64,000 nt of DNA, taken from positions 10,629,001 to 10,693,000 of the forward strand of contig OX485807.1 in the NCBI GenBank assembly GCA_950295325.1, read 5' to 3'. A program made the position numbers and the translations under genes. Origin of the DNA: Polytrichum commune. Lineage: Eukaryota; Streptophyta; Polytrichopsida; Polytrichales; Polytrichaceae. Positions 39,749 to 64,000 of this stretch are shown in pieces (the first letter of the stretch is position 1; each line of letters opens with the position of its first letter). The notes below the pieces were generated by a model that was not told the DNA's origin, ran no database searches, and saw nothing but the letters and a program-made list of their open reading frames with translations.

Positions 39749-40737
39749 ATCTCATTGGAGTAGACTACGGCCGACTTGGCAATGATCTACCTTCGCCTTC
39801 TGAAACAGTGAAGCTCCTAGTCGATCTTGGCGTGAAGAAGGTCAAGATCTATGATACTGACCACAACGTCCTAGAAGCCTTTCAAGGCTCGGGAATCAGT
39901 CTCTCCGTCGCGGTGCCCAACGACCACGTCGTCGAAATAGCCGACAGCCAAAGGGTAGCGAACCATTGGGTCGAACAGAACATTGTGAAGTACTCGGGTC
40001 TGATTAAATCAATCGCCGTGGGCAACGAATACTTGAGCGCGAACAACACTGCATTCCCGCCATCAAAGCTCGTCCCAGCAATGAAGAATGTGTACAACTC
40101 GTTGAAGGCCAATCACCTTGAAGACCACATCCGAGTGTCGACCCCTCACGCCATGTCCATCATTGATACCCCAGGATTCCCCCCTTCCCAGGGAAAATTC
40201 AAAGATGAGACAGTGATGAAGGACGTCCTGCATTTCCTGCACGCTACAAAGTCTGTCTTCATGTTGAATGTTTACCCATTCTTGGCTTATGCACAGGATC
40301 CACACGGAATCAACCTCAACTACGCCTTGCTGCAGGACAACGCTACGATAGTTACGGATGGTGGGTTGACGTACGACAACATGTTTGACGCCATGCTGGA
40401 TACCGTGATTTCTGCCATGACAAAAGTTGGGTACAAGGATATGCGGATCACGATCACTGAGACAGGGTGGCCAAATGGCGGGAGTAATCGGCCTGGAGTT
40501 AACCCCAAAAATGCACAAGTGTATAACCAGAACTTGATCAGGCACGTGCTGGCTAAGAAAGGGACTCCGTTGCGGCGTAACGAGCGCTTTCCGACGTACA
40601 TCTTTGCGTTGTATAACGAGAACTTGAAGAAAGCAGTGGGCGGAGGAGGGGAGCAGAACGAGGAGAAGCATTGGGGTTTGTACCATCCAAAACCATTGAA
40701 ACCTGTTTATGAAACTCCGTTGAGATTTAAGGGGTGA
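39749..40737 (+). CDS. Glucan endo-1,3-beta-glucosidase (GH17), main exon
   Basis: Hydrolyses beta-1,3-glucan (callose, fungal glucan), normally secreted to the wall. The exon opens after a gccaacatgcag acceptor (phase 1) and reads LIGVDYGRLGNDLPSPSETV, the usual mature N-terminus of the family. Both catalytic glutamates are present: the proton donor in SIAVGNEYL and the nucleophile in ITITETGWPNGG. TPHAMSIIDT, FMLNVYPFLAY and HWGLYHPKPLKPVY are further family signatures. The exon encodes about 329 residues to a TGA stop, the usual size of the catalytic domain. There is no C-terminal CBM43 or GPI region. The signal peptide must come from an upstream exon. A candidate ends at 39212 and joins in phase as MG|D-LIGVDYG, but its ATG is not secure. 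If no such exon is used, the copy is 5'-truncated. Confidence 0.88.
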
Positions 40738-44522: not shown

Positions 44523-45539
44523 AAGATAGACACGTATGTTGAGATATTATTCCAAGTATACATTTAGGTATTGGTATATATTACAAGTTAACTCGAAAGT
44601 CAAATTTATATAGATAGATAGATTACACCTACATATTTTTTACAATGTTCTTATATTAATATTATAATAAATATTAATATTATAAGGAGTTACTTCACAA
44701 TTTTACAAATGGAAATTCACCCTAAACCCTTTGAATTTTTATTATTACAATTGCCCAATGTGAAAAGTATGATAAAATTATAAGCATGGTGATATTTTCT
44801 TAACTTTTATCTTTCATTTAGGTTGGTCTTTTAGCCAATCTTGTGAATGATCTACATTGTTCATAATATTCATTGTCACTTGCATTGTTGGCAAATGGTT
44901 GCATAATTACTTGGAGTCTGGAAATGTTAAGTCCACTATTTGTTAACATAACACTATAGTTCAATACAAGTAGCTTTATGAAAGTTTTTTTTTTGCAATA
45001 TGACATTAACACTATATTCGTTAAATTGAGACTTTCTCTAGTCTCAAATTAATATATGGATCAAACAACATTCCGTGTTCCGAAACTATATTGCGAACAA
45101 TCTCAAATATATTATATGTTCTAATATCCCAAATCTATTATGTGTGTACATAAGCACATATGGTAGAGCACTCAACATCAACTTCATCAACAAAAACACT
45201 TTGGGTAGAGCACTCCAAACTAGTTTCACCCAAGAAACATATAAAATGATTTCTATTATTAGCATGGTCAATAAAATATAGACATTGCAACATACAAAGT
45301 ACATGCAATAAATGCATTTTTCTTCACTGGAAAATTTAGTCCCAAACTTAATAAAAAAAATGAACTTCACAACTGCATTGAAATATAGTAAATGGATATT
45401 CATCCAACCCCAAACAATATAGCATTCGCAAGCTCTACCCAAACTTTGCCCCAAGTTTGAGGAGCACACATATGAGTAATATATATTTGTCGAATTACAT
45501 ATTACACTATAATCATGCTAACACAATCCTACCAACTTC
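44523..45539. other. Intergenic, AT-rich
   Basis: No supported gene. It contains the hairpin-bearing block at 45019-45064 that recurs at 51.95 kb. This is the 3' flank of the DUF7869-type gene. Confidence 0.45.
45019..45064 (+). repeat. Hairpin block, mate at 51945-51991
   Basis: ATTCGTTAAATTGAGACTTT followed by tctctagtctcaaattaatatatgga matches 51945-51991 with few changes and in the same orientation. Each copy can form a stem of about 10 bp from (T)AATTTGAGA and TCTCAAATT. The pair brackets the DUF7869-type gene and its array (about 6.9 kb). Confidence 0.65.
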
Positions 45540-48500
45540 TCATTCAACGTGGGTTGCTTCTTCTGCGATCCGAGCAAGGTTGTCTTTTGCAAAAGTTATG
45601 TACTTTTGAGGGATGGACACTGATCCACTATGATTTTTCCGTGGTTTCCATGCTATGAATATGGAATCTGTATCTACCCAAGATGGACCGTGCTCAGAAT
45701 CCACCTTCCACCGAAAGTGTTGGTTTGTATCCCAGCCTGTATAATGCCGAACAACATCTTCATTCCGTGCTGTCGGTCGGTAGTACTCCACTTGTATTTG
45801 TCGAAAATGAGGGCTGGAAGATACAAAATTTGGATTGGACAAAGCTCTTGCCACCCACACTGGCTTTGCATATGTCTCATCTCCAGGATGCAAAATGAGC
45901 ATATAACCTTCATGACAATCCACTGCAATGCGGAAAGATGGTGGCGGACGACTACTAGCAGGCCCCACGTAATGGTCGTCCACATCAAACTCCTCTCGAA
46001 CCTCTCCATTTCCCAAAAGACTAGCCTCCGAAGCTTGTACATTGACACGTGTTTGTGGCCAAAACCCATGCCTTAAAGTAAGGGGTGTATCTTGATGAAG
46101 GTTTGCCAAAGCGCCACGAACACGTGTCCAATATTGTATCCAACTTCCGTAACGAAGCCAACACGATCCACCAACATCCGCTACCCTCAAACTCTCCCAA
46201 TATTGTATGAAGCCTGATATGCCTTTACAAATGTCCTCCAAATTCTTCATGGGTATTGGTTTGCAAGGCTTAGGCTCTCCGTCAGGCAACATCGTCCTTC
46301 CCTCCCCATCAACACGCCATACAAGGAGACCCTCCGGCGGGCTCCAGTCTTGTGACGTGCACAACAACTTGTATTGCATGGCGGGGACACCATCGTCACG
46401 CACGTAGAACCGAAATTGTTGTGCCTTCGTATGTCCGATCAATCGGTGAGCTCCGCTTCGAATATACGGTTCTATAAATGCCTTGAAGTCGGGAACCTCC
46501 TCGATCATATGGGGGATGACGGGAATGTTCTCCAAATCCATGTACGACTTCATCAACAATGGGATTGTTGGAAAATCCTCCTCGCGCAACTTCATGCTCC
46601 ACCGCCCAAAAGATGCATCGATATCGTCGTGCGTGTGGCCTACCAATAGAAAGGACACAAAAACCTCCTTGAAAATGTCTTTCGCAACCAACAACGACCA
46701 ATATGCAAAAACATATCTACTTTTATTGTCCTTCGCACAATTGTCCAATTGGACACGCAGAGTTGGGGGCAAATTCTTGGCAATCACATCTTCACTTGGT
46801 GGCTCCGGCAAGGAGTGCACGCATACATCTCTTCCATCCAAGACCGCTTCATATAGAGGTGTTGATCCCGAGTTTTCAAATAACAATCTTGATGAATAGG
46901 ACGGCGGTTTCTCCAAATCACGTAAAAGCTTTGCAAATGACCCTATCGTGTGGTTTGAATCCGCCGGATACAAATCAAGAGCATAATGAGCATACTTGAC
47001 ATCACCATGTCCATGTGCAATCATCCCTGCAAAGCCAACGCAATGGTTTAATATTCAACTATGACACCAAAAAATTCACCTGCTGTACATCTATGGTCCC
47101 AAGTACAAACCTAAAGCACAAATTTGTGTTTAGGTAATGCAATGCAATTGTTATTGAAATCACCTGTAACCGATACAGGAAGCTTAAAAAGGCCGTCCGT
47201 GGCTTTGATTCGATTTGCAAAACATGGTGAGGCTGTTTTGGCATGGTCCATTTTGTCATGGATGATTGTAAGGACCTCCAAAGGCCTAGAGATGGACAAA
47301 GCTCTATTTGTGTAGTAATCATTACGGTGTGCCTCTTGCATGTTCACATGCTTGAAATAGTTCATTTGATGTGCGGCATAGGACTCTGTCCCCATCGTGT
47401 GTGCATCTCGAAGGCGTTTCAACTTCTCGCATTTGGAACAACGGGCAAATTTGTCGCCTCGTCTTTTTGTGATGTATTCGCTAAAGTGAGATTTTTTTAT
47501 TGCACTCAGTTTCGACAACGAAATAGGGTCCAACCCAGCCTTCTCGCCAACTGCGTTTACGTCCAACAATATGTCTTTCCATTTCGTGCCTGTAGGAAGA
47601 ACCTTCTCCACAACCTTTTCACCGGTTGCGAGTGTGCGTGTTTTGTACGGCATTGCATCGGCAAGGGGGACAATGATGGTTGCCAGAGTGGCGGTTGCTT
47701 GTCTCGTTGCTTCCCTTGGTTTCTTTAAGCCCGTATTCCCATGGTGATGGGACCGGCGGCCTTCCTTGGCATACGCGGCTTGTCTATAAAATTCCGCTTT
47801 CGACACACCGTGAATGATGTACCATGCGGTACAACACATGTCTATGCTCTCAAGGGTGATGACCTTGCGACCCGCTCCGTTCACATGTATCGCCCTATGG
47901 ACATCAAGCTTTTTGGTGGATCTTAGACGGAAATCACCAAGCCACATTTCCTCGCGGATGGCCTTCAATTTATCCCTTGGGAACAATTGGCAACAACGAT
48001 GTACACAACAATCCTTTGTGGCAACTTCTCTAATGGACTCCTCACAAAGCAACCTTTGACGTTTACACTCATTTGCAGACGGAATAGGACGTGCCAATGT
48101 ATCGTACTTCCGTAGGCCTTTGCGTGGCCGAATGTTTGCTTGGAGCTCCTCTTGGATTTGGATGTGTCGTCGCTCATGCTCATGCAAATTAACCCCATCA
48201 ATTGTCACATTCCTCAACGGCCACCTTCGCAACGAGAACCTATGAGTTGGATTAACTTCGGAATGTACGAGTGATTCCAATATAACAACTCCAACGTCCT
48301 CGGTGCCAAGGGGGTTTTCATCAATGCAATCTTGTGGATGTGTGTTACGACAAATACCCTCCGCCACAGCAACTCCACTGTCATTAACAAGTACTACATC
48401 CAAATTCACCCATGAAGCTCGTGAAAGCCCAGCACATTCCACAGTGGGGCAAGAAGGGGCAGATGGCGAAGGACTCCCCAAGTCACCTTCATCTGCACTG

Positions 48501-48628
48501 TCATCAAAACTATCCTCCCCAACAATGTCTAGCTCATCCCCAGACATAGATTGGGTGTTGCCCATGTCGTCAGAGAAGGAATCCCCTCTTCCACCAACTC
48601 CCTCCATTGCGCCTACACACATGCACAT
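45540..48628 (-). CDS. DUF7869-type protein, probable transposase-like, two exons
   Basis: Exon 1 48628-47164 and exon 2 47026-45540, joined by a 137-bp GT-AG intron in phase 1. Joining restores FKLPVSVTG|MIAHGHGD exactly and gives 983 residues without a break. The start could also be the ATG at 48607. N-terminal 100 residues are acidic. Then come CCVHRCCQLFPRDKL, VITLESIDMCCTAWYIIHG, SHHHGNTGLKKPREATRQ, HFSEYITKRRGDKFARCSKC, LEVLTIIHDKMDHAKTASPC, TLRVQLDNCAKDNKSRYVF, and FLLVGHTHDDIDASFGRWSM. These are the block order of the DUF7869 family. Aspartates in IIHDKMDHAK, QLDNCAKDN and HDDID could form an RNase H-like DDE/D triad; this is inference. The intact frame in decayed surroundings suggests recent activity or selection. 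A tandem palindrome array begins 179 bp upstream, in the promoter position. Confidence 0.8.
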
Positions 48629-48806
48629 GAAACCTCAACACACATGGAAAGAATGTAAGGGTCCAAAAGAATCAAATATCGGAAAATGCAAGACACCATG
48701 ATCAATGAGGACACCGAGGATGAAGACATTTCCAACACAACTACAATGTGAACTCCCAACACTGTGTGCAAGTCCAAAACAAGTTCCAGGAATTATTTTG
48801 GTGCAG

Positions 48807-49698
48807 GTTTGGGTCGACCGGCCCAAACCTCATAAGGGTCGGACTGAACCCCTAACACACTGGGGTAGGGGTTTGGGTCGACCGACCCAAACCTCACAAG
48901 GGTACATCCACCCACACCAGGTAGTGATTTGGGTCGGTCGACCCAAACCTGATAAGGGTCAGAAAAAAAACCCTAACACATTGGGGTAGGGGTTTGGGTC
49001 GACCGACCCAAACCTCACAAGGATACATCCACCCACACCAGGTAGGGGTTTGGGTCGGTCGACCCAAACTTGATAAGGGTCAGGAAAAAACCCTAACACA
49101 CTCGGGTAGGGGTTTGGGTCGACCGACCCAAACCTCACAAGGGTGCATCCACCCACACCAGGTAGTGGTTTGGGTCGGTCGACCCAAACCTGACAAGGGT
49201 CAGAAAAAAAACCCTAACACACTGGAGTAGGGGTTTGGGTCGACCGACCCAAACCTCACAAGGGTACATCCACCCACACCACGTAGGGGTTTGGGTCGGT
49301 CGACCCAAACCTGATAAGGGTCAGGAAAAAACCCTAACACACTGGGGGTAGGGGTTTGGGTCGACCGACCCAAACCTCACAAGAGTACATCCACCCACAC
49401 CATGTAGTGGTTTGGGTCGGTCGACCCAAACCTGATAAGGGTCAGGAAAAAAACCCTAAGACACTGGGGTAGGGGTTTGGGTCGACCGACCCAAACCTCA
49501 CAAGGGTCAGACATAAACCCTAACACACTTGTGGACAGGTTTGGGTCGGTCGACCCAAACCTGATAAGGGTCAGACAAAAACCCTAACACACTGGGGTTG
49601 GGGTTTGGGTCGACCGACCCAAACATGTTAAGGGTTAGACATAAACCCTAACACACTAGTGGACAGGTTTGGGTCGGTCGACCCAAACCTCATAGGGT
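48807..49698. repeat. Tandem array of 120-121-bp units carrying 15 palindromic sites
   Basis: About seven head-to-tail units. Each has two copies of the 22-bp inverted repeat (arm GTTTGGGTCG). The first copy has spacer AC and the second spacer GT, so the sites alternate orientation strictly after the first one. AC-type starts: 48871, 48992, 49112, 49233, 49354, 49475 and 49603. The text between sites alternates CCTCACAAGGGTACATCCAC and CCTGATAAGGGTCAGAAAAA forms. The array lies immediately upstream of the DUF7869-type gene. It is not a CRISPR: the repeats are palindromic and the spacers are near-identical. Confidence 0.92.
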
Positions 49699-50429
49699 CA
49701 GACTCAAAACCCGCCAACACTAGTGTAAAGGTGAAGGTTCGCCCAAGTACACCACAAAATCCGGCGTATAATGCGGCGGATATTGCGTGGTGTGTTGAAT
49801 TTGAGCTCATTGCAAAGTTCACGGTGGGCTTGCATGGTGTGGATAGGTGCTCATGAACTTGCATGCTATGGATAAGTGCTCATGAACGGCAGCATGCACG
49901 AACCTTGAAGTACAGCTCCTACTAAGAGTTCTCTCTACGAATTCGACAGCGGGAGAAGAGAAAAAAAGGACCGACTTTTGGGGGGTGCGCCTTTTTATAC
50001 TATCCACCTCCGCTTCCCAGACTTAGTCATTGGATGCCTTCCCCGCCTTCTTCTCTTGCAGAGGTTATTTCAAACCTCTTGACAGAATTCCCCGTTTTCT
50101 GTTTATAGTAGAAAAATGCGCATCTATCAATGCCCCTCTGATACCCCAACCGTCATATGACTTAGTCTATGTTATTTAATCTATTTGTTTTGTTTTGTGT
50201 GGATATGACATACGCCATTGGGAGGAAGGGTGGCGACCACATTAATTTTTTCAAGTATCATCAAGGTATATTTTAACCAATATGTAGACCCAAACACAAC
50301 TCCATTCAATGCTTTCAAGTGTAAACCTATTTAAGTGGGGTTTGGGCCATTTGGAGGCTGCAATTATGAGAGAGTTTCCAAGGCTTGAGGCCATTGTCAT
50401 GATGAATAGAATTATTTATTTGTCCCCCC

Positions 50430-50455
50430 TAAACCCTAAACCCTAGAACCTTGCT
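50430..50455. repeat. Short telomere-like run (CCCTAAA)n
   Basis: Three consecutive CCCTAAA-type heptamers. A second run of the same kind lies at about 51177-51205. CCCTAAA is the usual plant telomere unit. Runs this short are common inside chromosomes and do not show a chromosome end. Confidence 0.7.
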
Positions 50456-50589
50456 CTATTATCTCGCATGCAAGAGTGGCAATGACGAACGTATGTGGAC
50501 GTTGTTAAGGGGATACTAACTACCAATGTCCCTTTCTAGTTCAATCTTTTAATGTTACTTGAATCCATCCTCAAGTTCACTTCAAGTTT

Positions 50590-51430
50590 ACTAATGTGTG
50601 AGAGCAAAACATCCAAGATTGGACCCTAAACCCTTATAACATCCACAACATGAAATACGCATTGACTAAATACAAAACCAATTAGGATATCATGTTTAAA
50701 CGTCCCATATAACATATTAACATGATCAAGATTGTATTTACTATGACCTTCCGATTAGACTCTTCTTCATAATATTATGCAAACAATATCTGTTATATCT
50801 TCCTTCATTATCTAATACACGTGGAGAGAACAATGAATAACAACATGATGTTGTGCTTCTCCGATTTACTTTTACATGACATTCCATATATTAAATACAT
50901 CATGAACGATGGTTTATTAGCGACTAATATGTGATTCCCTAAAGTGAGCGAAACATCCAAAGTTGGACCCCTAGCCCCTATTAACATCCACAATATTTCA
51001 TGTTATTTGAATAAACACACGACCAATCAATATATCGCGTTTAAACGTCTCGAATAACAAATTAACATAATCAACATCGTCTTCACTATAACCTTCCTAT
51101 AAGACTCTTCTCACGAGTAAGACAATGTTATACATTGACATTGGATAGATTAATATGTTATAACCCTATCTCCTATCTCCTAAACCCTAAACCCTAAAAC
51201 CTAAACACCAAATGTAGTTGTGGTTCACTGATGCCCCCATATACAAACAACATCTATTTTATCTTGCGCCATCATCTAATATACATGGAAGGAACAGGGA
51301 ATAACAACATGATTGCTTGAATGGCTTCATTTGATGTTGTGCTTATCCCATTTACTCTTATATCACAATCTATATATTAAATAAATCATGAACCATGATT
51401 TATTGGCGACTATGTGATTCGTGAAAGTCA
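50590..51430 (+). repeat. Degenerate tandem repeat, unit about 340-460 bp
   Basis: The block order aaacatccaagattggacc, ttaacatccacaa, gtttaaacgtc, gactcttct recurs at 50605 and 50948. The following block atcatctaatacac, gaataacaacatgat, tatattaaata recurs at about 50800 and 51270. The second unit is lengthened by the telomere-like insertion. Confidence 0.65.
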
Positions 51431-53389
51431 CGATCTAAGGGATGTACTTAAAACTTGAGCATGTTCGCATTTTCAAATAAGGATCGTGCATTTCAAAACC
51501 CTTGCAAAATGCAGTTGGGGAAGGTATTCATTTATTAGGCTCCACACTCAATTATTCTAAATTGTTCCACATGTTGGGGGGTGTGGGTAATCTTTTTTTT
51601 TTCATTCAATATCGTGTGAATTGTTGGCATCATTGGTAAGGACTAAATGTGAATGGTTACATCGTTAAATATAACGCAATTATATGGTTTAAATTTTCTA
51701 ACATGCTCAAACAAAAGAGAAACCAATGCCTTCAATGATTTTGGAAAATTTAGGGTATGGTGTCATGTAAGTAGGGGATAAGTATTAGTTTAGCATAAAG
51801 TTTTGTTGTAAGAATGCGCTGGCTATATAAATGGTTAGTTTTGTAGAATAACACATTTTATGTAGCACCTTAGGGTACTCCATAGTTCTTTTGAAAAAAC
51901 TAATAAGGGTTTAGAGCAGGGTCCAAAAGAACCTAAACCCTAAAATTCGCTAATTTGAGATTTTCTCTTCTCTCAAATTAATATATGGACCACAACAACA
52001 TAGTGTAATGTTTGGGTCGTCCTACCTAAACCATCTTCATATGAGATCTTAATTGCGTTCTTGATATGAACACCTGCTTCAAAGTATTTGCATCTTACAA
52101 CATTCTCCAATGTACGTGCGATTTTATCCATGTTCTTATATTTGTAACTTTCTCAAAATGCCGAAAAAATCCCAAATTAACGAATATACCGATTAAAACA
52201 AATGCAGCCTACAAAATTAGTGACTTAGCCTATAAAATTTTGAAAGTGTAGGACAAAGAGCCTATGGACAATTTAAAAACATAGGATATCAACCTATGTG
52301 ATAAAAACATTTAGGAAATTTTGCCTAAATTTTTTTAAAAGAAAGGATTTTAGCCATTCATCCTTCTTCAAATTGGGAAATTAGTTGGCCTAAGTACATA
52401 TCTTTAGGCTATATCTTGCAGGAAGAGTAGAGGTTGAATGAGAACATGGTGAGAACTTTCACCCTTAAACTCATTTGAATTTTAGCAACCTTTCAAAACT
52501 TATAATCAACTCTTTAAAAAAGACTTGGTTAATCCTTGGCCTTCAAACGTGGTGAAAGGCTTAGCCAGGTTCAATTCCTGCCAAGGATCCCACTTAGTAC
52601 TCAAATTTTGATTTTAAAACCTACAACATTAAAAGATATGAAGGATTTTAACCTACTAAAATTTAGTTTTGAGGCAATTGGCGAGGAACTTACAAACTCA
52701 AAAGGTTTTCAACTTACAAAAAGTTGATATTGTAGAATGCAACCTATGCTATGAGGCAAATAGCCTATGTACTCTTAATGAGGTAGGCCCGCTAAGGGTT
52801 TAGAGTCAAGCGTTATGATTTAGGTTTTAGGGTTCCCTGTAACCCTGTTTCCGTGGGTGCCCTAATCCTGTGGGCACCCTATTCATGCGGTTGGGGGCCA
52901 ATGCCCGAGGTAAACAAAACCCCAACCGTCGCATTTCTCATTTCTTTCTCTCTCTCTCTCTCCGCGCCTCGCTTGGAAGCGCCGCCTCTCCTGAAGCGCC
53001 GCTTTCGCAAAGCGCCGCGGCGAATCAGGCTTGGTGTAGGTTAACCCTTCATTCTCCCGCGTTCATTGCTTTCTTCTGCATCTTCTTTTCCCTCCTTTCT
53101 TTTGCTCTTCAATAGAATAGCCCTTGTGCAATCTTAGAAGTTAGGAAGAGTTTTGAAAGAAACAAAAACATACGGAGGAAGGTTTTAGAGCGTGAGAGTG
53201 AAGGAAGTTAGCAAAAGAGTGTTGAAGAGTATTGGAAAGTGCTGAAGGAAGTTAGTAGAACATTCGGTAGTAGATAAAGCTTCGGTTTGGGAGGTCCAGG
53301 TGTTTGTACTGGAAGTTTTAGGAGTGCTTGTGAAATTCAAGAGTTCTTTAAGAGTATCAAGAGTTGTTTGAGAGTTTTCGAAGTCGTTT

Positions 53390-53600
53390 GAGAGATTCAG
53401 TAGTTTTGTGAGGGATTCAGGAGTGGGTTTAGACATTTCGAAGTCTTTTGAGAGGTTTAGTAGTTGTGTGTGAGATTCAGGAGTTGGTTTGGACATTTCG
53501 AAGGCTTTTGAGAGGTTTAGTAGTTGTGTGTGAGATTCAGGAGTTGGTTTAGACATTTCGAAGTCTTTTGAGAGATTCAGTAGTTCTGTGTGAGATTCAG
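53390..53600. repeat. 60-bp minisatellite in the putative 5' leader exon
   Basis: Three to four copies of a 60-bp unit containing GAGATTCAGGAGTTGGTTT and ACATTTCGAAGTCTTTTGAG. The minus-strand frame across it encodes a 20-residue repeat only because 60 is a multiple of three, so it is not called coding. The region probably belongs to the leader exon of the ParB-like gene, which would end at the GTATTG donor at 53751. Confidence 0.7.
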
Positions 53601-53750
53601 GAGTTGGTTGAGAGATCCAAGAGCTATTTGAGAGAGTTGATACTTGTTTGAAAGTTTCTCATTGAACTTTCTCACAGTTTGTTTGATATTGAGAATTATT
53701 GGAAGAACAACCTGCTCTACTCCAAATTGTCTGCACAACATCTTTGAAAG

Positions 53751-54329
53751 GTATTGTGTTTTATTTTAACCAATATGTGTTTGTATATTCACGGTTTTGT
53801 AGCATACACAATGCATAAGCATTGTATATGCTAGATGCCAAGTTTAAAAAATATATTAAAATAATATTGTTTGGGGAGACGACCCAAACACAGCCTCTTG
53901 TTTGGGTCGACCGACCCAAACACAACCCCAAACACAGCCCCTTGTTTGGGTCGCTCGACCCAAACACAAAACAAAGCATCATGTTTGGGCCGAACGACCA
54001 AAATATAACACAAAGCATCATGTTTGGGTCGAACGACCCAAACTAAGTCTTCTAATTATAAACTCATAAAGAAATCCATGATTTTTGCATCAATATAAAA
54101 TTCACATCAACCCAAAATAATAATCAAGGAATGCATCAAGGAAAAGTATCAAGGAATCCTGCATGTCACAAACAATATAAAATGCAAATCCACCCAATAA
54201 TCACAACATTCTTATTATCATTACAAATGATGCTGAAATATATAAATACACAATCCACCTAAACCTATTCATGTCGTAGATGTTTGGGTCGAACGACCGA
54301 AACTAACTTTGCACATTATTTTCTTACAG
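53751..54329 (+). promoter_or_regulatory. Probable 5'-leader intron with six palindromic sites
   Basis: A tttgaaag|GTATTG donor at 53751 and a ttttcttacag acceptor ending at 54329 frame an intron that stops exactly at the ATG. Palindromic sites lie at 53869 (degenerate), 53900 (spacer AC), 53944 (CT), 53983 (degenerate), 54022 (AA) and 54282 (AA, one arm change). They sit upstream of the second element gene, as the tandem array does for the first. Confidence 0.65.
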
Positions 54330-55664
54330 ATGGCTCCAAAGAAAAGACCCGGCGAAAGGTGGTTCATGCCTGCACCGGACATGTTGTGGCAGGAGCACGA
54401 AACCCCGCAGGATGACTCCTATTCCCCTAAGGACGGGCTTGTCCTCGCTTGGTCTATTCAAGTAGTCAAAGCCTCAACATACAAAATGATTTTTGTTGTC
54501 AAGGTGGGAACCGTGGAGAAACACACCTGGGCGACCCTTACGGGATGGGAGGTCGCATCGGTACAGTCTCTTGGAGACTATACCGACGTCATCCTCGAGA
54601 ACTCGGCTGTGCAGAACGCGCATATGTTCATGCACCAGTTCTCCGAGCCTTTCGACGCACTCTATGCAAGAGAGTCCTGTGTCGAACCGGAAGTTATCAA
54701 GCCGGAGACAATATTTATCGATGGGAGTACATCGAATACCAAGGTCTCAAGCCGGTTCACAAAACTAAAACATGCAATAACCGTGCTGAACAGGGGCCTG
54801 CAAAGCAAAACCAAATCACAGCAACCTGTGAGGCGGAAAGCTCCCACAGAGGAAGGAGCAGGGTCGTCAAGACCTCAATCGGTGAGGATGCCGTTACCAG
54901 TACCGGCTGACTCGCGTAGGACCACTCCCTCCCAAACACCTACAAATAGTGAGACCCCTACACCTTCTGGGAGCCATCAAACAACTCCATCCAAGAGGGC
55001 GAGAGAGTCATCTGTGATGACTGACGAGCCAGTCTCACCGGAGTTGCGCATGCCGAAGCCCGGCGAAGAGGTGGATGCAGGGGAGCTGCAGAAAATCGTG
55101 AACAATTTCACGACGAAATGCTCCCACTGTTTTTTCATGGGCAGGGATTTCAAGTTCGACGTGAACATCAGCCAGTGCCATCTAGCGCCACCGGAGAAGT
55201 GTGTCCGGGCAAAGGAGGACGCCTACGTTGACTAGATAATCGCGCAGATCGTTTGCGAGCAGTTTAAAGACGACAGGCAAACGATTGTAGTGATGCCACA
55301 GGGTCTCAAGAAAATGCCTACACCTGAAATGTGGCCAACAATTCAGAAGGGCGATTTTTGGCTGATAGATGGCCAACACAGCGTGGAGGCATCCAAGAAA
55401 ATCCAACTCATGAATGAGTGGGACGATCCCAACAATCAGAAGGAAAAGCTGAAGGTTTGGAAGGCACTGGTGGTGTGGTCTGACGACGAGACCAAGCTCA
55501 GCGACATCTCCCGGTACTTCAATATGGGAAACAAGAAGAGGGCCTACCAAGCTTCCTGGATAAGGAATATCATGACCTCGCGGGAGGTGTGGGAGTTCTA
55601 TGGTAGGCCTCCCAAGGAGAGGGAGAATGCGAAGGACAAGAATCCCAAGTGGGAGGTGAGTATT

Positions 55665-55882
55665 GTTTGGGTCGACCGACCCAAACTCCTGGTGCAGTCT
55701 TGTGTTTTTTTTTAGTTTGGGTCGATCGACCCAAACAACTGTTGCAGTCTTGTGTTTTTTTAGTTTGGGTCGATCGACCCAAACAACTGTTGCAGTCTTG
55801 TGTTTTTTTAGTTTGGGTCGATCGACCCAAACAACTATTGCAGTCTTGTGTTTTTTTTCAGTTTGGGTCGACCGACCCAAAC
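55665..55882 (+). repeat. Five tandem palindromic sites in intron 1
   Basis: Copies start at 55665 (spacer AC), 55715 (AT), 55763 (AT), 55811 (AT) and 55861 (AC), with a period of about 48-50 bp. The text between them is the same each time (aactgttgcagtcttgtg, then a T run). The AT-spacer forms are perfect 22-bp palindromes. Confidence 0.92.
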
Positions 55883-57332
55883 TCTTGTTGTAGATGTTGG
55901 TCATGATATGGTTTGGAAATCACATGTACTTAACTAACACGCATTCAAATGTTCTGTTTTGTTCACGTGCAGGATTTCAAATACCAAATGATCAACAAAT
56001 TCTCCTCCATTGATAATTCGAGCTACAAGCAGAAGAAATACAGCGACCTGAAGGGGGAGATTTACTTGATTACAGCATCGGACTCAGTTTGGAGGAAGTG
56101 GAAAACCGTGTTTGAAAAGTACGAGACGGGGGATTTGATCGACCCTGACACTGGCGCTTTCTTCAGCCTGGCCTCGCGCTTCAAGCAGATGAAGCCTTTC
56201 GTGAGAGAGATCTTTAAAACTCTTCAAAGGCTGTCAGAGACGGAGGTGGAGAAGGCGGCATCGCACATCCTGCACGTGGCACCCACGGCCAAGAGGTGCT
56301 GGGTGCACCCGAAGATTGTCTTCGTAAAGCCCAAATCCTTCGTTCCTTCATGCTACACCATGAAGGAATGGACGGAGAACAGGAAAAAGAAGACGACTAT
56401 CGTGCAGGAACTGCATAAATTGGTGCCAGAGAGGAATATTGTCGTGGACGGCGAGGTTCATGGGGCTAACTGGAGAGCATTCAAAGATGAATATAAGTTC
56501 ACCAGTGCCTCCATGGCGGCTCTAATAAGGGAAGCGGGGGACGACTTCTTGCGGGCCAAGATGGTGAAGGGTGGGAAGAACCGGGCGCTTCCGGATCACA
56601 CAGCGCGTGCGTTCTCGAACTTCATCAAGGAGAAGAAGATTGTCCAGTTTGAAGGGGACGCTTACTTCAACCTTGTCACCTTCGAGCCTTTGAAAATTCA
56701 GGGCTGGCCAGGTCAAGACGCCAGAATGGCGATAAGGACGAAAGCAAGGGACCGCTTTCCTTTTGGGATGATTGATTTTAGAAATATTCCTGGAAGCTCA
56801 TTTGAGGGCACGATGAGCACCCTCTTCTACGACCCCTTCTTAACTAAGTTCGTCGATTATGCAAGCCCTAAGTTCAGGGAGGTAGATATCTGGCTTTGGA
56901 TAGTCGAGGATAGAAGGGCGGAGCAGGTGTACGAGCTTGTCCGGAAACTGCAGCCGGAGTATGCAGTGTCCAAGTCTCACTACATCGCCGCACCGGCGGA
57001 GGGGGCTTATACGACGTTGAAGGACAAGAAGACCAAGTTCGTCAACGTCTTGTGTTTGTACTTCGTGTACAAAGCGGAGTTGCTGAAGGTGCCAAACCAC
57101 CCTATATCCCGGATGGACAAACTCTTCCAAGTTCCAGAAGGGTTGGGTGCGAACAAGTGCCTCTACGACGAGGCTAAATACGCGAACTATCCTGCAGATG
57201 AGCTGCGGATGGAATTTTACATGAGAATGATGAGGACGCTGACGAGGAGAGGGGACTGCATCTTCAACGTCTTCGGAGGCTCAAAACCTGTCTATGCTGC
57301 TATGGTAAGTGACTTTCTATAGCTCGTAAGCA

Positions 57333-57390
57333 GTTTGGGTCGATCGACCCAAACTAGGCTCTTTGCAGGTTTGGGTCGACCGACCCAAAC
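57333..57390 (+). repeat. Two palindromic sites in intron 2
   Basis: Copies at 57333-57354 (spacer AT) and 57369-57390 (spacer AC), inside the 160-bp intron 57305-57464. Confidence 0.9.
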
Positions 57391-58575
57391 TACACATTGT
57401 ACTTAGTCTTGTTTATGTGATTGCCTCGACAAATTCTAATTTCCCTATAACTTGGATTGTGTAGATGTCGGGGCTGAATATATACTCCTACATAGAGGAT
57501 GGCGATCTGCCATTTTACAGGGTGCAGAAATCGCTGGCGAAGAAGATGGACATCCTCGATTGGATCCCGGGTAGCTACGTCGACGAGGTTGTTCAGGGTG
57601 GCGAAAACCCTCTTGATAGGGTGAGGCGCATCAACCCGGAGGAAATGGCCATGAGGGCCACGACCCAAGTTCCCGAACCTCTGGTCGGGTTGCATCCGGG
57701 CAATCCGTCCCGCACAGAAGGTGGCGAGGTTGAGGAGGAGGAGGAGGAAGCAGAGGAACACGAGGAGGCGGAGAAGGAAGGCGACGTCGAGGAAGGGGCA
57801 ACGGGCTTCACGCAACAATCCGAAGCCCCTCAACGGAAGAAGGCGATGCGGGCGGCAACCCCGCAGAGTAAGCTCGTGCCTGTCCTGACTGTGGACGATG
57901 CCGGGACATGTACTCCAGGGACGCGACCGCCACGTTCAGGGAGAGGAGGAAGTTGAAGGGGAAGAAGCTGTATGGCGACTACTCCGTGGAGGAGACCATT
58001 GCCATAAGCAGCGAGGACGACGATGATATTGAGCTCGCCAAACGGCTCAGATCAGATCCCCCCTCCCCGACAGCGTTCGCTGGCATGGTTAGGGTGAAGC
58101 CCGAGGTCCTGACTGTGGAGGAGGCGAACGAGAAGATGAGGAGGGACGAGGAGCAACGCGTCCGTCTGCAGAAGGCTGCCGCTGAAGAGCCCTCAATGCG
58201 GAACGAGGTAGCAGAGCTGAGGGCTCTCCTGTTGGAGCGACAGAGGGCGATGGCCCAACCTCCGTCCCACGCCGAATTGATATCACAAGTGATACAAGGA
58301 ATGTGGGCGCAAGGTTTGGTGGTGGCTCCCTCCAGCTCCTTCCCGCACTTGCCCCCCGGCTTCCCTCCGCAGAGCATCCCTCAGCAGCCTGTGCCGCAAT
58401 CGTCTTTCAGCTTCCAGCACTTGATTCGGCCCCACCAAGTTCCGTACGCGCCGGTCCAGCAAGTGGATGACCCCAACATCTGGCGCGTCTCTGGAGCCTC
58501 CTCCCCTTTGGGCCCTCCACCACTTCGGCCCCCCATAGTCATGGCGCCCCCTCACCAAGCGGACGACCCCAGGAT

Positions 58576-58666
58576 GTTTGGGTCGACCGACCCAAACCCA
58601 CCATCCACTGGAGTGTCCGAAGGGCCCTCTCCAGATGCAGGACAGTTTGGGTCGGGCGACCCAAAC
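58576..58666 (+). repeat. Two palindromic sites within coding sequence
   Basis: Copies at 58576-58597 (spacer AC) and 58645-58666 (spacer GG). Both lie in the same reading frame and encode FGSTDPNP and FGSGDPNP. The spacer change falls in a codon (ACC to GGC), leaving the arm-encoded residues unchanged. Confidence 0.85.
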
Positions 58667-58967
58667 CCCGTTGCAGCGCAGTCCTCCCTTGACCAACATG
58701 GGTGTCAACTAGACACGGCCATGCTAGATGTTGAAGGCCTGCAAGGGCCTGGTGATACCTCTACTCCTAACCAAATCGATGAACGCATGCATGATGCACA
58801 TGCGGAGATTGGTTTAGGACAAGGGCCTGATGCCGATCGTTTGCAGGAGAAAGTTCCTGACGTCGTCGGAGAAGGCGGTGGCGAGAGAGGCGGGGCAGCG
58901 GGGACGGTGGAGGCTTCCACATCGTCGAGACATGACCAGGGCGAGGTAATACACTGAGCCCTCCCCA

Positions 58968-58989
58968 GTTTGGGTCGACCGACCCAAAC
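58968..58989 (+). repeat. Palindromic site after the ParB-like gene
   Basis: One copy with spacer AC, 10 bp after the TGA. If the GTAATA at 58946 is a real donor, the site lies in a third intron leading to the FCP1-like exon. Confidence 0.88.
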
Positions 58990-59483: not shown

Positions 59484-60248
59484 GTGGAGGACAGCGCGGT
59501 GGTCCCCCCGATTTTGCCCTCGCCACCTTCGCCTCCCAAGACCCGGTTCCTGGTGCTAGACCTCAACGGGGTCCTTGTCCAGTGCGTGCATTGTCCGAGG
59601 GTCCCTACGGTGCCTTTCTGCAAGCCCGAGGACGCCAACTACGATGGACCCCCCGCGTACATCAAAAGCAAGCTAGTGTACCTCCGCCCGTCCCTTCGGC
59701 GCTTCCTACAGGTCGCCCTATCCAAATGGTGGGTGATCATTTGGAGCTCCATGAAGTCCGAGAATACCCAGGCCGTCGTGGAGTTCATCTTCAAGGGACT
59801 CCAACCCCCGTGCTTGGTCCTAGGACAGGATTCTTGTAAAACATTATACACCCCCGAGGGCAGGGTTGTGAAGAAGCCCAACAACCCCGCCGTAAACCAA
59901 TTTCTTAAGGTCTTGAAGCCAGTCGTATGGGACCAGCGTCCGACCATGGTCGGCTGTCCCTACGACGTTCGCCCCACCCGTGACAACACGTTGATGGTGG
60001 ACGACAGCGCTTCCAAAAACATTTTGAACCCGACCTCGAACTTCATAGTTTGCCCCACGTGGACGGTCGAGAAGGTCCGAGACCGCTTTTTGTTAGACCT
60101 ACTTAAGTACATTCAAACGCTCGTGGGGAGCGGACTACCCGTGCCCCGGTTCCTTAGTTGTAATCCGATAGGCGAAAGATACATGGATCCGAAGGACTAT
60201 ATGTATAGAGAGTTGTACGCTCACGCGAAATATAATAAACTCATTTGA
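59484..60248 (+). CDS. FCP1/NIF-like HAD phosphatase-domain protein
   Basis: The frame is open from before 59484, which is a GTG with no ATG upstream in frame. This stretch is thus most likely an exon, with a possible acceptor in the 59440-59460 region, perhaps of the preceding gene via a 58946 donor. HAD motifs of the FCP1/NIF type occur in order: RFLVLDLNGVLVQ (motif I), LVYLRPSLRRFLQVAL, WVIIWSSMKSENTQAVVEF (motif II region) and NTLMVDDSASKNI (motif III). The second motif I Asp of the DxDx(T/V) signature is Asn here, as in a plant group with DxNG. Whether it keeps phosphatase activity is uncertain. The protein ends at TGA 60248 and encodes about 254 residues, the size of a free-standing domain. 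Codon use is GC-rich like the gene before it. Confidence 0.65.
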   Translation: MEDSAVVPPILPSPPSPPKTRFLVLDLNGVLVQCVHCPRVPTVPFCKPEDANYDGPPAYIKSKLVYLRPSLRRFLQVALSKWWVIIWSSMKSENTQAVVEFIFKGLQPPCLVLGQDSCKTLYTPEGRVVKKPNNPAVNQFLKVLKPVVWDQRPTMVGCPYDVRPTRDNTLMVDDSASKNILNPTSNFIVCPTWTVEKVRDRFLLDLLKYIQTLVGSGLPVPRFLSCNPIGERYMDPKDYMYRELYAHAKYNKLI

Positions 60249-60689
60249 AATACTACATGGTGTGCCATTGTGTGTGATATATTATGCCTCAATTGTATAT
60301 CGATTTTCACATGCTCCCCCCTCCCCCTGTGAGGCCAAACCCCCCACCCTTAAGCGTCCGTAGTCCGAGTAGTGGGTTTGGGCTCACATTCCTCCGCGGT
60401 ATTGGATTTGGACTTGGATGAGTCCATAGTGCAAGGTTCACCCTTCAAGTGGTCTTGGATTTAACTTTGGTCTTTGTTTCCTTTGTCTTGCCATCGCGAG
60501 AGTGCTCCACATTCTCCATTAATTTGTGCACGTGGTTTATTTTTAAAGAGAGGATGCAAGTGTTAAAAAAAACACTATTCTCTATAGTCAATCTCAAATA
60601 CATTTACTTGTGAAAGCCACCATAACACTAACTAGCATAATGTAACTAACTACTTGTCTATGAGCTAATTAGGTAGGCTATCTACTAAG
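60249..60689. other. Intergenic
   Basis: 3' flank of the FCP1-like exon. No gene seen. Confidence 0.45.
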
Positions 60690-61215
60690 CTCCTTCATGA
60701 ACCCATCTCTTTACTTTCTAATTACATAAACCTAGCTCCTTCATAAACCCAGCTCCTTCATAAACCCAGCTCCTTCATAAACCCAGCTTCTTAGCTTCTA
60801 ACTAAACAAACCCAGCTCCTTCATAAACCCAGCTCCTTCATGAACCCAGCTCCTTAGCTTCTAACTAAACAAACCCAGGTCCTTCATGAACCCAGCTTCT
60901 TAGCTTCTAACTAAACAAACCCAGCTCCTTCATAAACCCAGCTCCTTCATGAACCCAGCTTCTTAGCTTCTAACTAAACAAACCCAGCTCCTTCATAAAC
61001 CCAGCTCCTTCATGAACCCAGCTTCTTAGCTTCTAACTAAACAAACCCAGCTCCTTCATAAACCCAGCTCCTTCATGAACCCAGCTTCTTAGCTTCTAAC
61101 TAAACAAACCCAGCTCCTTCATAAACCCAGCTCCTTCATGAACCCAGCTTCTTAGCTTCTAACTAAACAAACCCAGCTCCTTCATAAACCCAGCTCCTTC
61201 ATGAACCCACAACTT
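60690..61215 (+). repeat. 63-bp tandem repeat, about 6-7 copies
   Basis: Each 63-bp unit is composite: two 17-bp forms of ACCCAGCTCCTTCATAA, then a 29-bp block ACCCAGCTTCTTAGCTTCTA plus actaaacaa. Early units vary and the later four are nearly identical, suggesting recent expansion. The frame shows no meaningful coding. Confidence 0.9.
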
Positions 61216-62415
61216 TGTAGTTGTAATCCCCAACTACCTCACTAATTATTCAAGCCCTTAACTAATCTTCCTACCTAATTTCCCTAATTCTACTAACAAC
61301 CCCTTTCTAATCACACAATTCTTCTCTAATCCTAAAATCCTAAAATCCTAGAGAGGAGAGGGGGAGAGAGAATTTCCTAACTTCACTAAGACTAACTAAT
61401 CCACACAAGTATATTTTTGCACTCATCACAACATCAAGTGCTCAACTCTTAAACATGGAACTTGCAACCACGTGTATTCAAAACATGAACTTAAAGTACC
61501 ACAAATTGGAATTATGAATTAACTTTAAAATCCTTCACGTCAACACTAATTCTACCAAGAGGTCAAGCCCTCTTCAAGGCTAACAAGCCTTGGCTCTCAA
61601 ACTAAAAACTAAGCACACACATGTGCTCCAATATGGCTTCCCACACCCACACTTATAACTCGTGGGGTGCCTTGGAGCACAAAGGAAAGAGAGGATGAGT
61701 GAGGGAAGAATGAGGGATTATATAGTAAGCTTGAGGGGGTGAGCACCCTCAAGGCTCACGATAAGCCCTTGAGATTTCCTCCTACTTAGTAGGCGCCAAT
61801 CCTATCTTCTAAGCCTTCCTCCCTCAAATGATCAACAAGGATCCTAATTCGAACATTTAACTAGCCTTGGCTTTCTACCTACCACACTTTACCAAACTTG
61901 GGATGCTTCAACCCAAACTTAGCCTCCTTCGCTTTCCGCCGCCATAACTTTCTCCCCTTACTTTCCCAAATCGTCGCTCACCACTTAATTCAAACCACGA
62001 TGCTTAACTCGTGATTTGATTGGTGCTTTGAGAATTTGTTTATCCTCCACCTTGCATTCTTCCTTGGGCCTTCCCCATTAAGTGGCCATGATGAGGTGGT
62101 CCACTTGTGCGCTCCATGTGATCCTCCATTCATCCCAATTCGAATGCACTTGCCTCTTGAGTCACTTTGGTTGTCTCCATCCATTTGTACTAGCCTACTC
62201 ACTAACTACTCAATCCAAGTTCTCCTTACCTATCCTCATTCACTCAAATCCTTCCGAAGGTAAAAACACAATAACAACTCACATCCTAACATGGTACTTC
62301 TAAGACTAACATTTCACTCTTTTTATATTTTTGTGAAGTAACATGCTACTTCAAAGTGCATCAACTAACGTTTCAAGGGTCTAAGACTAAATGTGGGCAC
62401 CCTTTTGGGCTCACA
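61216..62415. other. LTR-like stretch ending at a primer-site-like sequence
   Basis: Contains a TATA-like TTATATAG near 61719 (plus strand). It ends GGGCTCACA at about 62415, followed by taat and TGGCGACCATCGGGGG. An LTR ending in CA followed a few bases later by TGG is the usual start of an LTR retrotransposon body (primer binding site). The neighbouring pol gene reads the opposite way, so this LTR may belong to another nested copy. Only one LTR is visible. Confidence 0.35.
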
Positions 62416-62476: not shown

Positions 62477-64000
62477 TCAAGCTCGGTACTCCTTACATCT
62501 ACTTCCCGATGTACGGGTAGGAAAGAGCTCACCATTCAACGTTTCCAATTGAATTGAATTATTAGGAAAGACCTCATAGACAAGGTAAGGTCCTAACCAT
62601 ACCGCATTGAATTTCGCCGGAAATTCAAGCTTTCGTGCGTCTTGAATCATGACCATCATTCCCGGTGTTAGGGCCCTTCTCTTATGTCGTTTGTCGAAAG
62701 TAATCTTTCTCCTTCTTTGGATTGCCTCAATATGTTGAGCCGCCATTCTCCTCCCTTCGTCAAGTGCTTCCAAATCGGTTAGTCGATTTCGTAAGGATTG
62801 ACTTTCGGTAAGTCTCGTACTCACGGCCACCCTAAGTGACTCGACTTCATATTCGATTGGTAGTGTCGCTTCAAGACCATAGACTAAGGAAAATGGTGTA
62901 GCACGCGTAGTTACCTTATAGGTTGTACGGTATGCCCAAAGTGCCGCCGTTAGTTTCGTATCCCAATCCCGCTTCGAGTCTATAACCGTCTTGCGTAGTA
63001 TACTCACCAAAATTCCGTTAACCCTTTCCGTTTGTCCATTGGTTTGTGGGTGGTAGGGAGTAGTCTTCCGGTGATCAATTTTAAATTTCTCTGTCATCTC
63101 TCGAATCAAGTCATTCAAAAAGTGAGTACCCCTATCGCTTACTAGGATCTTCGGCACCCCGAACCGCGAAATTATGTTTTCGTACATAAATGTTGCCGCG
63201 TGTTCCGCCGTGTCGGTCTTCACCGCTTTGGCTTCCGCCCACTTGGTGAGGTACTCGGTTGCCACCACAATATATTTCATTCCTTTTGAAGATTGGAGAT
63301 GGACCTCACCCACATAGTCGATGCCCCATTTTTCGAAAGGAATTAAGGGTAATGATACATGTAAAGGCATCTCCATTCTAAGGTCGTTTCGGGCATACCG
63401 TTGGCAAGCGTCGCATTTCCTTACATAGTCATGGGCGTCCTTAAATAGTGTAGGCCAAAAGTAGCCCGCTCTAAGTACTTTTTGCCCGGTGAGTTGACCT
63501 GAGAAGTGACCGCCGCAAGCGCTATCGTGGCAAGCGATTAAAATCGCTTCAACCTCCGTTTTTGACACGCATCATCGTAAAATACCATCGGACCCCCTTC
63601 TAAACAACCTATGGCCCACTACAACAAATTGCCTACTATTTACCCTCACCTTCCTTCTCTCTTCTTTTGTCCACTCTTTGGACAACTTGTGGGTTGTTAG
63701 AAATTCCACTATGCCCGCATACCACTCCGGTGTAGAAGTGACCACAAAGAGGCTATCATCTACTAACATATCATTTACCGGATTTTTTCCTATCTCCTCC
63801 GACAACCTAGACAAGTGGTCCGCTTGTAAATGCATACGACCCGGTTTATATTCCACCGTGTAGTCGAATTCTTCTAATAACAAAACCCACCTAGCTAACC
63901 TACCACTTAACTCCGCCTTGTTAATTAGATACTTGATAGCCATGTGGTCAACAAAAAATACAACCGGGTTGCACATGAGGTAATGCCTAAACTTTTTAAC
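62477..64000 (-). pseudogene. Ty3/gypsy pol fragment (RNase H, integrase), one in-frame stop
   Basis: A retrotransposon polyprotein read on the minus strand, entering from beyond the right edge. 63976-63800: RNase H end (FFVDHMAIKYLINKAELSGR, YKPGRMHLQADHLSRL). Then an H2C2 integrase zinc finger (CHDSACGGHFSGQ, VRKCDACQ) and the integrase core with D (WGIDYVGEVH), D (ILVSDRGTHF) and E (PQTNGQTERVNG), all present. The chromodomain is not evident. The frame ends TGA at 62477. A single TGA at 63572-63574 interrupts the frame between RGSDGILR and CVSKTEVEAI with no shift. It could be a CGA-to-TGA change. Order RNase H-integrase is that of the Ty3/gypsy group. Confidence 0.85.

Follow-up and report, generated by a model that had tools for sequence, protein, structure and literature searches.

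Why does a stretch of DNA from Polytrichum commune carry the same 22-bp palindrome 31 times, and what might read it? The stretch, which we call the window, is 64,000 bases long (C5:10629001-10693000) and has been compared with the genome of 407.8 Mb in 64 contigs. We find that the region from 45008 onward is one copy of a giant DNA transposon of about 16-17 kb, with terminal inverted repeats (TIRs) and target-site duplications (TSDs) of 4 bp, and that the palindromes are a conserved component of this element. Its main genes are a DUF7869 gene and a divergent gene that we call ParB-like.

The palindrome in the window

Each site comprises 22 bp, in which constant arms totalling 20 bases surround a variable spacer of 2 nt. 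A pattern scan for exact GTTTGGGTCG-NN-CGACCCAAAC finds 26 copies in the window, spanning 48807-58989. At up to three mismatches there are 31 copies, the whole set lying within the same interval, with none in the rest of the window and none in 100 dinucleotide shuffles of it. The sites are distributed as follows, no strand being assigned to the palindromes themselves.

48807..49688: array A, 15 palindromes (13 exact), with spacing mostly alternating between 56 and 65 bp and then 64 bp; the repeat unit is 121 bp
52010..52031: one degenerate palindrome with 2 mismatches, within an element-end relic at about 51945-52188
53751..54329, + strand: leader intron of the ParB-like gene, containing five palindromes (53900, 53944, 53983, 54022, 54282); splice signals read from the sequence
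55665..55882: five palindromes in intron 1 (55656-55972) of the ParB-like gene, from the pattern scan
57333..57390: two palindromes in intron 2 (57305-57464) of the ParB-like gene, from the pattern scan
58576..58666: two palindromes in the coding sequence (58576, 58645), the same at third codon positions of the arms in the divergent copy d616
58968..58989: one palindrome directly past the stop codon of the ParB-like gene, from the pattern scan

A preliminary description had reported about 31 palindromes with fixed arms and variable spacers, and no copy in the remaining window, and in this it was correct. Its counts for the array, the two introns, the coding sequence and the region after the gene also agree with ours, but the leader intron holds five sites rather than six. 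The sixth was the copy at 52010 or else a half-site at 53880, which is the single occurrence in the window of a 9-base half-arm beyond the palindromes. In the array region (48800-49710) there are 3 CpG starts in the 581 non-site bases, and two CpG in each intact site.

Conservation of the site across the genome

The exact arm pair with a 2-nt spacer occurs 9,231 times in the genome, and a reversed control pattern has no match genome-wide. With spacers of 3-20 nt the arms occur 169 times, all lengths summed (the counts cover 2 nt and 3-20 nt, with 0 and 1 nt outside them). All 50 distinct places listed of these 169 are 31-bp hairpins in which the same arms flank an 11-nt spacer, and one sequence accounts for nearly all of them (GTTTGGGTCGAGCAAAATGCTCGACCCAAAC, for example at C1:1020527-1020557); this hairpin is possibly part of another repeat.

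The first 100 of the 9,231 places were listed, and 77 of them lie in three elements of the transposon family, which make up about 2.5% of the span (for the second element, at C1:1174920, only the left TIR is listed and its length is taken as 18 kb). Fifteen of the other 23 form two clusters before copies of a second gene family, f2. The preliminary description had raised the question of whether the site was linked to these genes or merely abundant across the genome. It is abundant, but the link is present. A lone exact site (C1:438279, in L001, C1:436779-439800) lies between two long minus-strand open reading frames (ORFs) with no Pfam match, which we take to be MULE transposase-like, an unproven label.

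The most informative comparison is with d616, a divergent full-length copy (C1:610501-632000). By blastn its DUF7869 gene is 84-92% identical to that in the window, and the part from the ParB-like gene through a phosphatase ORF is 74.5% identical. Exact sites number 36 in this copy and occupy corresponding places: 16 precede the DUF7869 gene and 10 the ParB-like gene, the ParB-like introns contain 4 and 3, the coding sequence has 2, and 1 is at the 3′ side of the ParB-like gene. The main array of d616 has a period of 78 bp, and its flanks align poorly with those of the window array. At the three alignable 3′ sites the arm bases are unchanged at 60/60 positions, compared with 134/192 in the 40-bp flanks. 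In the two coding sites third codon positions are the same at 16/16 in the arms, compared with 192/325 elsewhere in the ORF. Among 30 close copies the intron arms vary by 0.0083, against 0.0175 for other intron bases (p=0.017).

Chance or a simple repeat as the source of the site is ruled out by the shuffles, the genome counts and the arm conservation in d616. The fixed arms, free 2-nt centre and strict spacing support a pattern of the kind selected by a dimeric DNA-binding protein, as the preliminary description had proposed. Because of the site counts, the strictness of the spacer and the conservation of the arms, we favor a protein that would recognize the two arms together, a set distance apart, in double-stranded DNA. 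The palindrome did not turn up in searches of open-licence papers made on other subjects, none of which was aimed at the site.

The ends and copies of the transposon

The boundaries of the element were placed by comparison with other copies, three of which (c2, c5 and c6) are used here.

45008..45035, + strand: left TIR, AACACTATATTCGTTAAATTGAGACTTT, which in reverse complement matches the right ends of c2 and c6 at 28/28 positions; its partner lies beyond the window
60321..60326: break in homology with other copies; an LTR-like repeat (LTR, long terminal repeat) at 60327-62415 comes next, and the terminal 1.4 kb of the element lie outside the window

Homology of these three copies with the window starts at 45005-45008 and ends at 60321-60326, c2 being rearranged. 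In c2 and c6 the element continues for another 1.4 kb and closes in the reverse complement of AACACTATATTCGTTAAATTGAGACTTT; the c5 stretch is shorter. The TIR is 28 bp long and its 26-base core occurs 678 times genome-wide (332 forward and 346 reverse), ends sufficient for about 340 elements. One hundred of the 678 places were listed. Among the 90 of these on C1 there are 35 adjacent +/- pairs, 21 of them at 14-20 kb (median 16,992).

Ten probed copies together with c6 and d616 provide eight with both ends, and seven of the eight have a 4-bp TSD (TAGT, ATAC, TTGT, AATA, TATA, AACA and AAGT). The sole both-ended copy without one is L071/L072, and four further copies have no right end in the stretch examined. 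The coding regions are similarly numerous. A first look at the genome gave 1,227 candidates for exon 2 of the ParB-like gene, the best 95 of which were scored and are 91-100% identical, and for the DUF7869 ORF there are 1,867 candidates, the best 87 scored being 97-100% identical. The proposal of a self-contained element that is mobile and carries a repeated site of its own is supported by the TIRs, the 4-bp TSDs and the 678 exact TIR ends. The copy in the window extends from 45008 to past the window end, and is damaged by a stop codon, a frame break and the LTR-like repeat in its right part.

A truncated right end for the window element is ruled out, as the LTR-like repeat is a separate insertion. 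This follows because a solo copy of the same repeat is present in d616. Pieces of 139 to 1,500 bases of this repeat also occur at C1:436-477 kb, and it contains a tandem repeat array at 60725-61209. Beyond it, an integrase ORF (62477-63568, − strand; rve PF00665 and Integrase_H2C2) probably belongs to a Ty3-type retrotransposon adjoining the LTR.

Elements of the CACTA (En/Spm) group have termini that begin CACTA and a TSD of 3 bp. Membership of this group is ruled out, since the TIR begins AACACTA and the TSD is 4 bp. Sola transposons have a 4-bp TSD, and that of the element agrees with this trait in Sola1.

Some further structures are seen near element ends. At L053-L054 (C2:7206001-7226000) one copy seems to have jumped, in inverted orientation, into another at a position matching 50312 of the window, a nested transposition. 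The relic at 51945-52188 joins a left-end-like piece to a right-subterminal-like piece and includes the degenerate palindrome at 52010; c6 has no match there. Within about 390 bases of the right ends of c6 and d616 (L056, L058) lie three degenerate palindromes, of sequence GTTTGGATTGCCCTACCTAAAC or close to it, which are perhaps a second, end-specific site. To the left of the element there is an ORF (39808-40737) resembling by eye a plant glucan endo-1,3-beta-glucosidase (GH17).

The genes of the element

The genes of the element have the following parts, with splice sites read from the sequence and from the similarity between two copies.

45540..47024, − strand: DUF7869 gene, second coding ORF (candidate transposase); PF25273 DUF7869, E=1.1e-40
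47111..48628, − strand: DUF7869 gene, first coding ORF; no Pfam match, the intron linking it to 45540-47024 being predicted from splice signals
48613..49903, − strand: probable leader intron of the DUF7869 gene, containing the 15-site array; TATA, donor and acceptor are conserved in d616
49990..50001, − strand: TATA-like box of the DUF7869 gene; GTATAAA in the window and d616
54330..55655, + strand: exon 1 of the ParB-like gene, with a DGQHS motif; stop codon at 55233 in the window copy
55973..57304, + strand: exon 2 of the ParB-like gene, the exon of the 95 scored copies above
57465..58957, + strand: exon 3 of the ParB-like gene, with a broken reading frame in the window copy
59484..60248, + strand: NIF/FCP1-like phosphatase ORF within the element; PF03031, E=1.7e-13, inside the homology common to c5, c2 and c6

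All three genes lie inside the span shared between copies, with the ParB-like gene divergent from the minus-strand DUF7869 gene. The DUF7869 ORF scores 139.8 bits against a Pfam cut-off of 26, and DUF7869 is the sole Pfam match of the candidate transposase. A search of open-licence papers for DUF7869 by that name found no literature. The preliminary description was right to place 15 sites on the upstream side of this gene, but from the splice signals the array would lie in its leader intron, at about 48613-49903, and not merely upstream of it.

In the ParB-like gene the stop at 55233 is present in two of 30 aligned copies, one of which is that of the window. At the break point in exon 3 the other 29 of the 30 are in one frame, 11 of these 29 having a stop elsewhere in the slice. 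In exon 2 codon positions 1, 2 and 3 differ by 0.0105, 0.0084 and 0.0221 among the 30 copies, a pattern indicating that this exon of the family is under protein-level constraint.

At the end of exon 2 there is a stretch that by eye resembles motif I of DNA methyltransferases, with no confirmation from a profile or a model. AlphaFold2 without an alignment gave a mean pLDDT (predicted local distance difference test) of 34.5 for the ParB-like piece, which is too poor for use. A second model, of the methyltransferase-like part, was also too poor (pLDDT 41), and Foldseek found no fold match for it at E<=0.001. Neither tblastn against phages and plasmids nor searches of Protein Data Bank (PDB) sequences gave a convincing match, and scans of viral contigs contained no relative of the site, exon 2, the DUF7869 ORF or the ParB-like part. 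A tandem repeat of 20/60 bp lies at 53357-53616, 5′ of the leader intron of the ParB-like gene.

A second gene family beside the site

Site arrays adjoin members of two high-copy gene families. The second of these, f2, has 1,458 candidates in the genome, the best 150 of which were scored and are 59-100% identical. Arrays lie 3.4-4.5 kb before f2 at C1:482260 and C1:2163336. We took 1,351-base upstream slices from five further f2 copies of the 150, and sites are present in three (3, 6 and 2 exact).

When its pieces are joined by hand, f2 matches the DNA methyltransferase family phrog_67 with E=9.5e-9. Against PF01555 the joined pieces give E=5.7e-5 and 23.6 bits, below the cut-off of 26.7, and a single exon alone gives E=0.019. 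The best match of the f2 exon among PDB sequences is DpnA, an adenine methyltransferase, at E=0.16.

Which protein reads the site?

The reading we prefer, tentatively, is that a ParB/methyltransferase-like protein encoded by the element may bind the sites as a dimer and protect the element from silencing, in the manner of VANC. A dimeric, sequence-specific protein would bind the palindromes as double-stranded DNA, and this reader would be the ParB/methyltransferase-like product of the element itself, since f2, the one other gene identified beside the arrays, is also ParB/methyltransferase-like. Binding in the leader introns, the other introns and the 3′ end could then keep noncoding DNA open for expression against silencing by the host.

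A number of observations weigh against this. The ParB-like label of the element gene, given in the preliminary description, is weakly supported. The matches to the profile phrog_1033 are sub-threshold (E=0.023, 0.1 and 0.3), and Pfam and NCBIfam contain no ParB match to the protein. The P-motif of ParB-CTPases is GxxR, according to the available portion of PMC12704722. At this position 26 of 30 copies of the element have GQHS and one has a gap, and the Arg is present in none of the 30. No methyltransferase profile matches the element protein in Pfam, PHROGs or other profile searches. In f2 there is a ParB-like motif, DGNHR, upstream of the methyltransferase part, seen by eye only, and searches of Pfam, PHROGs, NCBIfam and PDB sequences find no ParB-like match for that part; direct alignment of the element ParB-like protein with the f2 protein finds none either. 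Two of the five f2 slices have no site, one of them despite a homologous stretch next to the array. Among the listed sites, 23 lie outside the elements, and eight of these, in clusters, are tied to neither family. Lastly, among the 30 close copies the arms of the coding sites vary by 0.0457 and the rest of exon 3 by 0.0393 (one-sided p=0.9999).

If such a protein binds the sites, it might also methylate the DNA of the element at N6 of adenine or N4 of cytosine, marking it as self or active. The match of f2 to N6/N4 methyltransferase families is consistent with this, and the same has been proposed for algal elements in the portion of PMC12477816 available. We nevertheless consider it unlikely, given the lack of a methyltransferase profile match for the element protein. 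In addition, the N6/N4 DNA methyltransferases have a catalytic motif IV of the DPPY type. No canonical form of it is seen by eye at the expected place in the proteins of the element and of f477. Binding is probably preferred over catalysis, with low certainty, because the P-motif Arg is lost in the element and canonical motif IV is absent from both proteins.

The palindromes could instead be sites for the DUF7869 protein or a TnpA-like partner, acting in transposition or in autoregulation of the transposase. The DUF7869 gene has the largest array in its probable leader intron, and c6 and d616 both have related degenerate palindromes close to their right ends. However, the exact sites are not subterminal but lie kilobases from either end, arrays are also found ahead of members of f2, and in the 9.76-kb f477 locus the best DUF7869 match, at E=0.17, is not significant. 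This makes such a role improbable.

A DNA-binding protein of the element might also be an autorepressor that controls copy number by damping both genes through their leader introns, which do carry sites in both divergent genes. But strong recent spread is suggested by the near-identical copies, at least 87-95 of them, and by the 678 TIR ends, and such spread fits escape better than restraint. While this is not decisive, we regard autorepression as about equally improbable.

Very improbable are RNA hairpins or cruciforms (in splicing or as small-RNA triggers) and neutral tandem repeats arising by slippage: the sites are indeed perfect inverted repeats, mostly intronic and often tandem, and the coding-site arms are at least as variable as their exon among close copies, but hairpins should show other loop lengths and paired changes, whereas spacers of any length but 2 nt are rare and the changes in most non-exact sites are one-sided or asymmetric, and under neutrality one would not look for arms that stay identical while flanks and periods turn over.

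Returning to binding of the sites by the ParB/methyltransferase-like protein, a wider proposal can be put, although it is doubtful. Two families without detectable shared protein sequence would have converged on, or inherited, one palindromic code, with more than 9,000 sites providing a shared trans-acting licence against silencing that is read by repurposed, catalytically altered ParB-methyltransferase proteins. The genome offers more than 9,000 natural examples of the target, in which the central bases are free, together with many near-miss variants, and therefore binding, specificity and effect are directly testable. If binding opens chromatin, this would be a further sequence-specific anti-silencing system besides VANC, derived from a fold best known in bacteria and phages.

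Comparison with known systems

Bacterial ParB/parS segregation uses clustered inverted-repeat sites. The present system shares with it the family name and the clustering of inverted repeats, but the site is different and the listed sites are in transposons and repeats. The segregation role suggested in the preliminary description finds no sign here, no search for ParA having been made.

ParB-methyltransferase fusions, combining a ParB-CTPase fold with an N6_N4 methyltransferase, are reported to be frequent in phages (PMC12704722, in the portion available). Like them, f2 has its ParB-like motif before the methyltransferase, and it matches the phage family phrog_67. Unlike them, the present genes are eukaryotic, contain introns and lie on transposons or repeats, and the element has GQHS instead of GxxR.

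An element of this type had been put forward as possibly not yet described in plants, but ParB-methyltransferase genes in algal transposons are already known. The accessible part of PMC12477816 describes the Ectocarpus transposon Sola1-1_Ec32, with a ParB-methyltransferase gene opposite the transposase, and also cites ParB-like and N4/N6 methyltransferase accessory genes for transposons of green and red algae. The proteins are proposed there to bind and mark their own element, and that part of the account names no target site. The present element is likewise a giant DNA transposon with an accessory gene on the opposite strand to the transposase, having ParB-like and methyltransferase-like parts, and like Sola it has 4-bp TSDs. 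It differs from the algal element, as far as that account extends, in that the palindrome is known, with 31 copies in one element and 9,231 in the genome, that the protein is too diverged for the profile searches made here and is without the P-motif Arg, and that a NIF-type phosphatase ORF is added.

The motif bound by VANC in VANDAL21 is 9 bases long and lies in introns and elsewhere in noncoding DNA, often in tandem repeats; binding leads to loss of DNA methylation, and the VANC6 motif is also found in the unrelated transposable element AT9TSD1 (PMC5735166, PMC10398659, in the portions available). The DUF1985, DUF287 and MULE domains are absent from Pfam matches of our element proteins. The likeness lies in a short motif arrayed in tandem within introns and noncoding DNA of a transposon that has a second, non-transposase gene, and in a motif common to an unrelated transposable element family. 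However, in those portions of the accounts the VANC motifs are 8-9 bases long and family-specific, whereas here a 20-base palindrome remains constant even between copies whose ParB-like genes have diverged by about a quarter.

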